From assembly GCF_000196655.1 (NCBI RefSeq), contig NC_014253.1:372001-436000 (forward strand): a stretch of DNA of 64,000 nucleotides, written 5' to 3'. Source of the DNA: Methanohalobium evestigatum Z-7303 (GTDB taxonomy: Archaea > Halobacteriota > Methanosarcinia > Methanosarcinales > Methanosarcinaceae). The position numbers and the translations under genes were made by a program. Positions 1 through 16,179 of the stretch are shown here, piece after piece. How positions within the stretch are numbered: the first letter of the stretch is position 1; every line of letters starts with the position of its first letter. The notes below the pieces were generated by a model. The model had not been told where the DNA came from. It did not search any database and was given only the letters and a program-made list of their open reading frames with translations.

Positions 1-1071
1 AAAACCAAATATGTATTTGATTCTTGGTGCAGGTTTTCTCGGAAAACCGTATTTGTCCAGTTTACATCTTTTGTAGCTACCTCTACCTTTAGCATGTATA
101 TGCAGGACGCTGTTAGTTTTGAATCTGAGTTCATCCGGTGTGGATTCTCCTACACAGCATGCATCAAAGTGATGGTCTTTCGGCAGGTTCAGTTTTATCC
201 TATTCATCTTGGTTAGAGCACCTGTACCGCATTCTATCGGTAGCCCTGTGTTTTTCAGTACATCAAGGACTTTATCTTTGGTAGCGTTGATTACAGCAGC
301 ATCTTTCATAGGCTTTTTAGCTTTCTCATACACTTCAGGATGACCGAATTCTTCAGCAGTCAGGTTACTTTTTCTCTGGTTACAATCATGGCATGCGATT
401 GTCAGATTGGATACTCTATTAGAACCACCTCTGCTTCTCGGTACGATATGTTCTATTTCTAACTGTACATCCTGTTTACCGCAATAAGCACAGGTTCTCT
501 GGAACTTTTCCAGCAGATATTCCCTGACATTGTAGCCCTGCAAAGTTCCTTGCTGGTATTCAACACCTTTGATTTCAGGGTTCTGCATCAGTTGAGTATC
601 AAAGTTAACATTTTCATAAGACAAACAGTTGATTGGAACCAGTTCTCTCAATCTTGTTATCCATGTCTGGATATTATCAACTCTGCTCTGTAGAGACGGC
701 GGAAGCCATCCTTCAGGTTTTTTCCTGTTATCAAATCTGGGTTTCCTGTATCTCAGGTTTTGTGATCTTCTTCTGCGTCTGAAATTCCTCCTATCGTCTA
801 ATTTCTTTTTAATATCAGTTCTGTGATGGACTTGATCCAACCAGATTACATCTTTGTTGTTCTTCAGTATGGCTAATCCAGTGTATCTTGAGCCATAATC
901 TATCTTTAGTCTGAAATCATCTTTTACGTCATCAGATTTCAGTTCTTTCAGTCTTATTGTAAATGGATACTTTTTGTGTATAGTAGCCTTTCCAGCTTTC
1001 AGCAGAATTCTAGCTTTGGCTGGATGGCACGGTGTTAAAGGTTTTTTATTTTTGTTCAATACGAATACCAT
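1..1071 (-). CDS. iscB: IscB RNA-guided nuclease (3' end outside the window)
   Basis: IscB is the transposon-encoded RNA-guided DNA nuclease family ancestral to Cas9. Visible in order: an N-terminal PLMP-type domain (NKNKKPLTPCHPAKARILLK); RuvC-I with IDYGSRYTGLAI (Asp58); an arginine-rich bridge helix; RuvC-II near YENVNFD; an HNH domain from about residue 190 with CAYCG, EIEHIVPRSRGGS and CHDCNQRK; RuvC-III with HHFDACCVG near residue 300; and the start of the C-terminal target-interaction domain (RGSYKRCKLDKYGFPRK). All catalytic motifs look intact. ATG at 1071 follows a strong AAAGGAG site. The frame is open to base 1, so perhaps 40-70 residues are missing. No transposase is visible in the window next to it. 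Confidence 0.93.
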   Translation of the reverse strand, partial: MVFVLNKNKKPLTPCHPAKARILLKAGKATIHKKYPFTIRLKELKSDDVKDDFRLKIDYGSRYTGLAILKNNKDVIWLDQVHHRTDIKKKLDDRRNFRRRRRSQNLRYRKPRFDNRKKPEGWLPPSLQSRVDNIQTWITRLRELVPINCLSYENVNFDTQLMQNPEIKGVEYQQGTLQGYNVREYLLEKFQRTCAYCGKQDVQLEIEHIVPRSRGGSNRVSNLTIACHDCNQRKSNLTAEEFGHPEVYEKAKKPMKDAAVINATKDKVLDVLKNTGLPIECGTGALTKMNRIKLNLPKDHHFDACCVGESTPDELRFKTNSVLHIHAKGRGSYKRCKLDKYGFPRKPAPRIKYIFGF

Positions 1072-1074
1072 GGA

Positions 1075-1336
1075 TATTACTCCTTTCTCTGCTTGATGCA
1101 GGTTACGCGGCTTATCAGCCGTCTCCCTTCGACAAAGTTATCCCGGTTTGTTATGCATGCACACTGTCCCTACCTCTAAGGACTGTTTAATGCTATGCGA
1201 TAGACCAACGGACTAAGGAAGCATCCGAGGGTATCATAGCCGGGATAACGTAGTTCCCTTTTGGTTGAGGGAACTCAGTCTGGTCAATCAGGGCTTGCCT
1301 CATCGACAAGCCCACCTCTTTAGAGGTGGGTTATTG
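1075..1336 (-). ncRNA. IscB omegaRNA scaffold
   Basis: This stretch lies directly upstream of iscB on the same strand, where IscB elements encode their guide RNA. It is dense in complementary segments. The hairpin at 1311-1330 (CCCACCTC/GAGGTGGG) is the terminal one next to the guide. GCTTG/CAAGC pair at 1293-1311, and GTTCCCT (1253-1259) pairs with AGGGAAC (1268-1274). A perfect 10-base long-range pair joins GTTATCCCGG (1137-1146) and CCGGGATAAC (1240-1249). In this family the guide is the first 16 or so bases of the RNA and is copied from DNA outside the element, here about 1337-1353. Exact ends are inferred. Confidence 0.82.
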
Positions 1337-1347
1337 ACTTTACATGA

Positions 1348-2052
1348 GATACACAGGAACACAAAAACACACTTTCAATAACAACAGCAGACATTAATAA
1401 TGATGGTAATCTAGATTTTGTTTCTGGTAACAAGGGTCAAAAAAATTATTGGTATGAAGGTAATGGCAAAGGAAATTTTACTGCTCATGTCGTGCACGAG
1501 AATACTAAAAATACGTACTCCGTAAGAATTGAAGATATCGATAATTATGGAAATCTGGATATTGTAACTGGTAACAACGGAGATAAAAACTACTGGTATG
1601 AAAACAATGGCGAAGGAAATTTCATCGCTCATGAAATAAATGGGAATGCCACAAATACGATTGATATAATTATTTCTGATTTTAATAAAGAAAATAATCT
1701 GGTTTTTATAACCATAAATAAACATCATGCATTTAAAATATATTTTGTTGACGAAACTGGTAAATTCAATTCTTATATGAGGATTAGCCCTCAATTTGCA
1801 AATAACGATGAAGTTTCAAGTTTTGATGATAGTAGTTCAGCTTCTCAGACACATTTCCAATACGAAGTAGCAATGGAAGATGTGATGTCGGAAAGAATGG
1901 AAAAGATGGAACAAGTTGTTCAACGAGCATCTCAAAAGGCTGATGAACAAGAACGATGTGATAAGGAATTTATTCAAGATCTTCTACAATCAGTAAAACA
2001 AATTTTGCAAGCTCACTTTAAGGCATTGGAAACAGTTAGTAACATGGGTTAA
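1348..2052 (+). pseudogene. VCBS/FG-GAP repeat protein, 3' fragment cut by the IscB element
   Basis: The frame reads through at least two copies of a repeat of about 45 residues. Each copy contains a calcium-binding-like DxNxDGxxD segment (DINNDGNLDFVSGN, then DIDNYGNLDIVTGN) followed by NYWYExNGxGNF. This is the VCBS/FG-GAP beta-propeller pattern of secreted archaeal proteins. The frame meets a stop at 1345-1347, beside the outer hairpin of the IscB element, and no start is found before the repeats, so the 5' part is missing. The last 80 residues are unlike the repeats: acidic, then a long charged helix that may form a coiled coil. An internal ATG at 1492 exists but would split the repeat array. 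Confidence 0.72.
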
Positions 2053-2166
2053 TAGAACAAAGTAGACAAAAAGTAATCATTGCTAACTACAATCTCTATT
2101 AATAATTTCAATTCTACCGGTTATCGGGATTTGTTTTATATATAATAATTTAACAATTTAAAAATA

Positions 2167-3279
2167 ATGAACAATAAACAGATACCAGAGTTTATTTGCA
2201 AAATATTTTTAATGATTCTGTTGTTGGTGGCGTTCAGTACTGTATCAGCTGGATATGAATCCAGTAATGCAAAAATATCTAATATTTATTCAGATATAAA
2301 TTCCTGTGATGTTACAATAAAATCAGAGACAACAATCCAGAACCTTATTCTTAGCTTGCAGTTATTCGATGATGGCAACTTTGTTGATGAAAAACGACTG
2401 TTTATCGATGAACTGGAACCTGAATCAAAGAATATAAGGGTTGTATCATGGGATATTAAAAATCCTGATGAAAGTTCTTATAAAGTTTCTGCCCGATTAA
2501 TACAAAATAGTTCAATAGTCGATTCTAAAAACCACAGTTTCCATTTCGGCAGTCCTGCGATACCAAGAATTACGGTAGATGATGTTGTATCAGATTCAAA
2601 TGGATTGAATCTGATAGTTAACCCGAGAGAGTCTGTAATAGCAGATATAGAATATATGCTTGTCAATGGTTCTGAAGTTATCTATACAGCAGAAGATATG
2701 AAGGTCAGTATACACAGCCGATCGGTTGAATTAAGAAAAAGATGGGGAGTAATTCTTAAAAATAACAGAGTGTATCATGGGCGTTTGAAAATCAACCTCC
2801 ATACACCTGTCAATGATGTTCATGCATTTATGACTTCATTTACTGCAAAAGATAATGCAGTTATAACTGATATTTACAAAGATGAAGTTGGTTCAAGTGT
2901 TACTATCGCAGGAAAGTCACAGGTACCATTTAGCGGATATTTGGAATTCAGAGTTTTAAAAAACAAAAGCGGCTCTGTAAAAGTTGTAGAGTCTGCAGTA
3001 AAAAAGTCACCGGTTCTCCTTGATGGAGAAGATGAAACTGTAGAGGTTATTTGGAACAATACTTTGCCTAAAGGGATTTATAAATTAACAGTTGAATTAG
3101 TGGGTAATGATGGAGATTTGATTGATAAAAAAGAGACAATAATAGAATCTGATTACAGACAAACCTCTGATAAAAAGGATGAAGAAAAAGAGGCAGGAAA
3201 GCCGGTACCTGGATTTCTGATTTTTGATTCTTTAATGATTTTTACCACAATTGCTGTAATGTATTGGATACGTAAATAA
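2167..3279 (+). CDS. Secreted protein with PGF-CTERM-like anchor
   Basis: A 370-residue exported protein of unknown function. Residues 10-30 form a hydrophobic signal segment ending near STVSAG. The body is beta-rich, with Ig-like segments and no enzyme motif that I recognise. The C-terminus has a charged linker (DKKDEEKEAGK), then VPGFLIFDS, a hydrophobic stretch and a final RK. This is the layout of PGF-CTERM tails processed by archaeosortase A. A TATA-like TTTTATATATA at about 2131 is only some 30 bases before the ATG, so the mRNA may have almost no leader. The stop lies 4 bases before the ABC permease gene, suggesting a two-gene operon and a role as the extracytoplasmic partner of that permease. 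Confidence 0.8.
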   Translation: MNNKQIPEFICKIFLMILLLVAFSTVSAGYESSNAKISNIYSDINSCDVTIKSETTIQNLILSLQLFDDGNFVDEKRLFIDELEPESKNIRVVSWDIKNPDESSYKVSARLIQNSSIVDSKNHSFHFGSPAIPRITVDDVVSDSNGLNLIVNPRESVIADIEYMLVNGSEVIYTAEDMKVSIHSRSVELRKRWGVILKNNRVYHGRLKINLHTPVNDVHAFMTSFTAKDNAVITDIYKDEVGSSVTIAGKSQVPFSGYLEFRVLKNKSGSVKVVESAVKKSPVLLDGEDETVEVIWNNTLPKGIYKLTVELVGNDGDLIDKKETIIESDYRQTSDKKDEEKEAGKPVPGFLIFDSLMIFTTIAVMYWIRK

Positions 3280-14840: not shown

Positions 14841-15245
14841 ATGAAAATCCGTGTATTAAGTTCTAAAGATGAAATAGAGAATTTGGATGAAAACGAAGAA
14901 ATGGTTCATCTGGCTTTCAGACCATCCAATACAGATATATTTTCGATAGTATCTAAATGTACAAACCTTAAAGCTCTTCATATACCAAGTTCATATAAAA
15001 GGACTCTTTCAGAGTCTGCAAAAATGTTTCTGGACATGCAGGGCATAAACCTGCTCGAAGGTGATGTATGGGGTCACAGAAAAGACATAAACGAGTATTC
15101 TGAAGTTTCAGATAACATATACAATCGGATAAAGGAACTCAAAGATGAAGGACTTTCTGATGATGAAATTGTTGATAAAATGAAAAAAGAAACTAAATTG
15201 GGTCCTGATTTTGTTGAGTTTCTGATAAAACAAAAATATGCCTAA
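14841..15245 (+). CDS. DUF1699 family protein
   Basis: 134 residues matching the DUF1699 family, which I know only from Methanosarcinales and whose function is not established. The N-terminal part (MKIRVLSSKDEIENL, EEMVHLAFRPSNTDIFSIVSKCTNLKALHIPSSYKRTLS) looks like an alpha/beta domain. The C-terminal part is a charged helical segment (IKELKDEGLSDDEIVDKMKKETKLG). The start is ATG 14841 with GGGATGA upstream. It is followed by T-runs and a strong hairpin. Confidence 0.75.
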   Translation: MKIRVLSSKDEIENLDENEEMVHLAFRPSNTDIFSIVSKCTNLKALHIPSSYKRTLSESAKMFLDMQGINLLEGDVWGHRKDINEYSEVSDNIYNRIKELKDEGLSDDEIVDKMKKETKLGPDFVEFLIKQKYA

Positions 15246-15251
15246 TATGTT

Positions 15252-15300
15252 ACTTTTTTTATTTTTTACCTAAATAATGATAGGGTAAATCCCTATCATT
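15252..15300 (+). terminator. T-runs and perfect hairpin after the DUF1699 gene
   Basis: Immediately after the stop come TTTTTTTATTTTTT and then AATGATAGGG-TAAAT-CCCTATCATT (15276-15300), a perfect 10-base stem with a 5-base loop. T-tracts alone serve aCPSF1-dependent termination in archaea. The hairpin lies after the tracts, so it may instead protect the 3' end or be an operator. Confidence 0.55.
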
Positions 15301-15473
15301 AGAGCAGATGGGAGCTAATAAGGGGGTAGTTAACATCAAATACCATTAATAACTCTCCATTATTTCTAAATATTTTCTAATAGATAAAAGTTTTTATATT
15401 TAATAAGTCATTATATTAAAAGTAATTAAAAATAAAACTATTGATTGTTCCAGCGTGTTAGCAAAAAGAAAAA

Positions 15474-15481
15474 TTTATAAA
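15474..15481 (+). promoter_or_regulatory. TATA box of the candidate small RNA
   Basis: TTTATAAA preceded by the purine-rich GAAAAA, as in archaeal BRE-TATA pairs. Its centre is 25 bases before 15502, where the stem of the candidate RNA begins. Confidence 0.5.
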
Positions 15482-15501
15482 CCAAACTTTCAAGTTAGAA
15501 T

Positions 15502-15551
15502 CTGGCAAAGGAACATCACTCCACCCTGAGACTCATTTACCCTTTGCCCAG
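15502..15551 (+). ncRNA. Candidate small RNA with closed terminal stem
   Basis: The 5' arm CTGGCAAAGG (15502-15511) pairs with CCTTTGCCCAG (15541-15551) over ten base pairs with one bulged C. The stem begins 25 bases after a TATA box, and TATTTTTTAGG follows directly, as expected for an archaeal terminator. The loop holds ATCACTCCACCCT, which is C-rich and resembles the 3' end of 16S rRNA. It could therefore pair with GGAGTGAT- or GGTGG-like ribosome sites. The loop also contains the short palindrome TGAGACTCA. No protein can be read from it. Confidence 0.5.
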
Positions 15552-15849
15552 TATTTTTTAGGTATAAATTATTGGTTTTGGTTTATTTTTTATCTAAATG
15601 GATGGGTTTATATAACTTCAGCTCATATATTATATATACATATAATCTGTTATTGAAAAAACAAAAACCTGTTTTTTATAGTAAATTATATGGATGATTT
15701 ATTGTAGGATTGTTACAATTAAATTTTTACCTGAATTGGATTGTATGCATAAATCTTCCTACCTATATTATCCAGTGGATTTTAAACTTTAACCTGATAA
15801 TCCACATCCACATAAAAGAGGAATTAATCTGGCAAACTATAAAAGTAAT

Positions 15850-16179
15850 ATGAGAAAGGATAGAAATAATAACCGTAAACAATCAACTGATGCCCCTGCT
15901 GTTACAAGGGTTCGTACTCCACGAAAAGATAAAAATGAAGTATTTGCTACTGTTTCTACACTGCTGGGCGGAAAAAGAGTTAAGCTCCAGTGTATGGACG
16001 GAACTGAAAGAATGGGAAGAATTCCGGGTTCTAAGAAAAAAAGGATGTGGATTCGTGAAGGAGACATTGTTATAGCACTACCTTGGGATTTCCAGGATGA
16101 AAAAGCTGATGTCATTTGGAAATATACCAGACCACAAATTGAGTGGTTAGATAAAAAAGGATACTTAAGTAAAGGATAA
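15850..16179 (+). CDS. eif1a: Translation initiation factor aIF1A
   Basis: 109 residues. The OB-fold factor that binds the A site of the small ribosomal subunit during initiation. A basic tail ([12 protein letters not shown]) is followed by the conserved core [55 protein letters not shown] and the ending [17 protein letters not shown]. Length and conservation are normal. ATG 15850 has no ribosome site at the usual distance; AGAGG lies about 28 bases upstream. The frame stays open to CTG at 15829. Confidence 0.95.

Follow-up and report, generated by a model that had tools for sequence, protein, structure and literature searches.

We identified, between a DUF1699 gene (14841-15245) and an aIF1A gene (Pfam) of Methanohalobium evestigatum Z-7303, a unit that, as judged from its sequence, is probably an independent gene with its own TATA box; it would specify a non-coding hairpin RNA of ~55 nucleotides (nt), the loop of which would mask the start of secY in trans and lower SecY. 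The organism is a halophilic, methanogenic archaeon. More specifically, because the loop is a near-perfect antisense of the secY message start, the RNA probably switches SecY production down. Positions refer to the window, i.e., the whole stretch of 64,000 nt analyzed (G000:C1:372001-436000), which belongs to a 2.41-Mb genome composed of replicons of 2.24 Mb and 164 kb (C2).

The original prediction had described a compact unit of TATA box, stem and T-run at this place, and every one of these elements is present (Table 1). Its estimate that the stem follows the TATA box by ~25 bases also holds, as the stem begins 30 nt from the first base of TTTATA and about 25 nt from its end. To estimate how rare this arrangement is, both strands of 464 kb of the organism's own genome were scanned for a TATA box followed, after 26-31 nt, by a perfect 8-bp stem (at least 4 G/C) with a loop of 15-50 nt and then T5. 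One site was found (15474-15560), compared with none in ten Markov-simulated 464-kb sequences; since the scan criteria were fixed after the site was known, this figure is an estimate of rarity and not a p-value. Folding of the hairpin yielded -12 to -14 kcal/mol (z of -2.3 to -2.5), with 4-5 of 200 shuffled sequences folding as well, and no Rfam family reached its gathering score in the hairpin region or around the related copies on the second replicon. The transcript would span about 15502 to 15560. By its intergenic position and its apparent own promoter and terminator, the unit resembles the genes of trans-acting archaeal small RNAs (sRNAs) that mask ribosome binding sites (RBSs).

Table 1. 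Coordinates of the hairpin unit in the window and of its copies on the second replicon (C2)
Feature	Position	Strand	Evidence or remark
Promoter: BRE-like purine-rich AGAAAAA plus TATA box TTTATAAA	15467..15481	+	Identical in the congener
TATA box TTTATAAA	15474-15481	+	Read from sequence
Hairpin RNA body	15504..15548	+	Folding; five covariance-model members; 3 stem pairs changed on both sides
Stem arms, 8 bp: GGCAAAGG / CCTTTGCC	15504-15511 / 15541-15548	+	Read from sequence
Loop	15512-15540	+	Read from sequence
Anti-Shine-Dalgarno-like loop piece ATCACTCCACCC	15515-15526	+	Read from sequence
TCACTCC, anti-Shine-Dalgarno-like, noted in the original prediction	15516..15522	+	AACTTT instead in the congener
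Palindrome TGAGACTCA	15527-15535	+	Read from sequence
secY-antisense core CCCTGAGACTCATTTA	15524..15539	+	16/16 complementary to secY mRNA UAAAUGAGUCUCAGGG
CCCTTT, belonging to the 3' arm	15540..15545	+	Duplex prediction with secY AAAGGG
T-run, probable archaeal terminator	15554..15559	+	Read from sequence
Copy p1	C2:117712	+	First a stem-pattern match; seeded the first covariance model
Copy p2	C2:117351	-	Found by covariance models
Copy p3	C2:87147	-	Found by covariance models

A syntenic orthologue of the unit is present in the Methanohalobium sp. MAG NZ_JAHENT010000038.1 (G001, contig C38), the one congener compared. The original prediction had made its case depend on a conserved stem in relatives with the same gene order; the congener, the only such genome, retains promoter, stem, T-run and synteny, and the sequence from promoter to stem is essentially unchanged. 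As the intergenic region as a whole is about 90% identical, little can be concluded from the fact that promoter and stem are conserved. The T-run directly after the stem, as well as the aIF1A promoter-like TTTATATAA just downstream (about 15607-15615), would also suit a transcription terminator or a leader of a neighboring gene, with no regulator involved. We consider this very unlikely, given that the unit lies ~258 nt past the DUF1699 stop and has its own TATA box, that in the congener a 72-bp insertion after about window position 15596 parts the RNA gene from the aIF1A promoter (G001 C38), that the paralogues on the second replicon have other neighbors, and that a plain terminator accounts for neither the promoter spacing nor the match to secY.

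The match to secY lies in the loop, which has a core reverse-complementary to the start of secY; the mRNA site UAAAUGAGUCUCAGGG is located at G000:C1:800265-800280 on the minus strand. secY was identified by Pfam and follows, after about 60 nt, a gene for L15 identified by sequence inspection. The window RNA can form 16 contiguous pairs with secY and 4 more beyond a small (1x2) internal loop (ACUC with GAGU), and the congener RNA 19 contiguous pairs including one G-U (AACUUUCCCUGAGACUCAU with AUGAGUCUCAGGGAGAGUU), its AACTTT lengthening the pairing. If the hairpin opens, duplex prediction also allows CCCTTT of the 3' arm to bind an AAAGGG that precedes the start of secY. Net of opening costs, the duplexes were predicted at -23.7 (window) and -25.3 (congener) kcal/mol, values that ignore high salt and growth temperature. 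In a target ranking based on a 464-kb genome sample with about 425 genes, secY came first for the RNAs of the window, the congener and p2, copies whose core is common by descent and which are not independent of one another; for p3, secY was within the top eight entries, and p1 paired poorly with it. The energies for secY were -32.9 (window) and -33.2 (congener) versus -26.7 and -25.3 for the next best target, and none of 60 shuffled loops reached the observed best energy in either species, the closest for the window RNA being at -32.5. Consistently, a search with the 19-mer that tolerated up to 3 mismatches recovered nothing but secY and one weak site in the window's genome; in the congener, it recovered these two and the RNA gene. 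Matches with 0 mismatches in the two genomes were confined to the start of secY and to the RNA gene of the congener. Complementarity to a start region is therefore specific, with secY first in both species, as would be expected of a trans-acting RBS-masking archaeal sRNA. Since only two species carry the RNA, conservation of the target rests on one species pair, and the secY site, being identical in both, provides no case of a compensatory RNA-target change.

Comparison with the congener indicates which part of the loop is conserved. Of the aligned stretches of the unit, the loop region is conserved least (81%, window versus congener), yet CCCTGAGACTCAT is untouched, and nearly all loop positions outside it differ between the two species; the palindrome TGAGACTCA, which in the original prediction could allow loop-loop contacts, is also kept. 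The anti-Shine-Dalgarno (anti-SD)-like ATCACTCCA of the window has become ATAACTTT in the congener, i.e., the anti-SD segment is lost. These data bear on the proposal in the original prediction that the loop could pair with ribosome sites through ATCACTCCACCC, taken here as that of a general anti-SD RNA that titrates many ribosome-binding sites. The loop does resemble the 3' end of 16S rRNA, and the loops of p1-p3 carry an anti-SD-like CCCCTCT or CTCCTCT as well; however, the congener has ATAACTTT-CCC at that place while retaining the secY core, and secY is far ahead of every other start region in the target ranking. Since it is not ATCACTCCACCC that is conserved, we consider a general anti-SD function highly improbable. 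Pairing with a ribosome site remains probable in the narrower form of start-region pairing through the secY core, and target prediction with the loop, which had been suggested as a check, did return a start region at rank 1, through CCCTGAGACTCAT and not ATCACTCCACCC. The original prediction is thus partly supported: the gene-like unit that it recognized is real and the type of action was guessed correctly, but the loop segment that it singled out was the wrong one and the specific partner was overlooked.

Outside the genus, no homologue of the hairpin was detected in the other family genomes searched by DNA similarity, stem pattern and covariance models. A GTDB scan returned only the congener and one chance match, and viral contigs and PLSDB yielded nothing useful. 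Among the candidates that we rejected, the DNA similarity matches in other genera that were inspected closely seem to be due to chance or to coding sequence; stem-pattern matches in five other family genomes, as well as a match in Verrucomicrobiota, have the arms alone in common with the hairpin; and covariance-model matches in three genomes (G047, G022 and G007) are unrelated hairpins or AT-rich sequence. The covariance across Methanosarcinaceae upstream of aIF1A that the original prediction proposed to look for was accordingly not found: the other genera searched lack the element, and covariation had to be drawn from paralogues on the second replicon.

Covariance models assembled a family of five members, namely, the copies in the window and the congener and three (p1-p3) on the 164-kb second replicon. 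In all five, the stem lies 27-29 nt from the TATA box (for p2, TATAAG at -28 by hand count), and the other copies likewise have a T-rich run after the stem. Three stem pairs are altered on both sides, a number reached by 7 of 500 shuffles and compared with 0-1 for slid versions; two of these pairs change from G-C to A-U, and the outer third, A-U versus U-A, forms in two copies only. As to the loop core, p2 keeps CTGAGACTC, p3 has CCGAGGCTC and p1 has lost it; the genome contains exactly three occurrences of CTGAGACTCNTTTA, in the window loop, in the secY antisense and in the p2 loop. The inverted arms could also reflect a mobile element or MITE-like inverted repeat that lies near aIF1A by chance, as could the second-replicon paralogues, of which two are oppositely oriented and one adjoins a transposase-like gene. 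To such an origin we assign only a very slim probability, as the similarity covers promoter, stem, loop core and T-rich end rather than terminal repeats, the loops diverge while the stem covaries, the chromosomal copy sits at the same place in two species, and a mobile repeat explains the promoter spacing and the secY match no better than does a plain terminator.

Two hydrophobic open reading frames (ORFs) with good Shine-Dalgarno (SD) sequences, possible type I toxin-like genes, were noted on the second replicon at L084:597-707(+) (36 aa) and L084:788-937(-) (49 aa) (G000:C2); the former starts inside p2 and the latter inside p1, each on the opposite strand. The family could accordingly be read as a type I toxin-antitoxin-like module, with a cis-antisense RNA, the window copy as an orphan antitoxin and the secY match as secondary. 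The opposite strand of all three second-replicon copies has an SD and an ATG in the loop (p1, AGAGGAGATAAATG; p2, GAGAGGGGATATG; p3, GAGAGGGGATAAATG), that of the window has GGTGGAGTG-ATG, and the encoded peptides of p1 (49 aa, MRAYPLPNKYLKTLFISIFLIAIYAP...) and p2 (36 aa) are hydrophobic, that of p3 having 9 aa. Nonetheless, we regard this reading as unlikely. The frames comprise 49, 36 and 9 codons in p1, p2 and p3, 8 in the window and 14, counted from another ATG, in the congener, and they shift across the stem from copy to copy, so that the RNA overlaps no small hydrophobic ORF that is conserved. Moreover, the 49-aa peptide has no stand-alone small-protein homologue in the family (weak matches only, the best inside much longer frames), neither it nor the 36-aa peptide matches Pfam, no opposite-strand promoter was noticed on inspection, and the secY complementarity is left unexplained.

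For the p1-p3 loops, the best predicted partners include the start of ftsZ; this FtsZ-like gene, recognized by sequence inspection, lies on the minus strand of locus L134 at about 17530 (G000:C1:1560001-1580000), with the start AAGAGAGGGGATGAAT. No recognizable gene start elsewhere in the genome carries ATGCGTGCAT, the antisense of the second-replicon loops. We raise only as a doubtful suggestion that the extrachromosomal copies also target host starts (secY by p2 and weakly by p3; ftsZ), by which the replicon would tune the Sec channel and perhaps cell division.

Several other features of the window were noted. The aIF1A start at 15818-15850 (GAGG-AATTAAT-CTG-GCAAACTAT) is probably a non-AUG codon: in 28 of 30 loci examined, the codon before GCNAAYTAY is CTG (24, one of them, L028, being perhaps a different match) or TTG (4), and the SD spacing is usually the same. 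Bacterial infC has an AUU start codon, and a conserved CTG start on an initiation-factor gene may, by analogy, point to self-regulation. An 11-nt identity, AATCTGGCAAA, is shared by the RNA 5' end (15499-15509) and the aIF1A start (15826-15836), a repeat that we discarded as it is not kept in the congener. The palindrome TAATGATAGGGTAAATCCCTATCATTA (15275-15301), just 3' of the DUF1699 stop, could be an operator or an RNA hairpin. Finally, a HEARO RNA (Rfam RF02033, 150 bits) lies at 1118-1338 (-), with no long IscB-like ORF beside it among ORFs of at least 90 aa in window positions 1-3200.

The proposed RNA resembles several known regulators. CopA, RNAI and Sok, which serve in plasmid copy control or as type I antitoxins, are short stable hairpins that initiate mRNA pairing by a loop. 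The unit described here shares these traits and has copies on a plasmid-like replicon; those RNAs act mainly in cis on the complementary strand, whereas the predicted partner here is the mRNA of a distant chromosomal gene. By description, the unit is also like the methanoarchaeal sRNA162 of Methanosarcina mazei. This intergenic RNA, with homologues in close relatives only and a paralogue, sRNA171, acts on MM2441, a cistron within a polycistronic mRNA, by masking its RBS and start (PMC3510493). In contrast to the single ~55-nt hairpin with loop pairing and secY as predicted target, sRNA162 has 191 nt and three stem-loops and pairs by a single-stranded linker (PMC3510493). Likewise by description, sRNA41 of M. 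mazei masks RBSs (Buddeweg 2018), but its targets are ACDS genes (PMC5867862). In M. mazei sRNA154, loop 2 masks the glnA2 RBS, a comparable use of a loop; it differs in belonging to the nitrogen regulon, in having more than one loop and in possibly being dual-function with a small protein (PMC5867862, PMC11456600).

We propose that transcription would begin no more than a few bases from the stem and terminate in the T-run, and that the loop of the RNA would pair in trans with the secY translation start region (UAAAUG-AGU-CUC-AGG-G). The 3' arm may then unzip and cover AAAGGG upstream of the start. The secY start, which lies in the L15-secY stretch of the ribosomal-protein operon, would thereby be hidden from the ribosome, and SecY synthesis would decrease with the upstream cistrons unaffected; repression is here favored over activation. 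sRNA162, sRNA154 and sRNA41 of M. mazei serve as precedents for such masking (PMC3510493, PMC5867862). In the literature searched, no paper ties an archaeal sRNA to secY, and that on M. evestigatum and small RNA consisted of a toxin-antitoxin review only. The candidate fits an established type of regulator; its predicted target is unusual, and it has extrachromosomal relatives. If the proposal is true, the essential protein-export channel would be under the control of an RNA switch operating within a ribosomal-protein operon. Targets have been named for few archaeal sRNAs, and the 16-19 bp pairing with secY is a concrete, testable prediction. The paralogues on the second replicon further raise the question of whether extrachromosomal elements adjust host genes by the same RNA fold.
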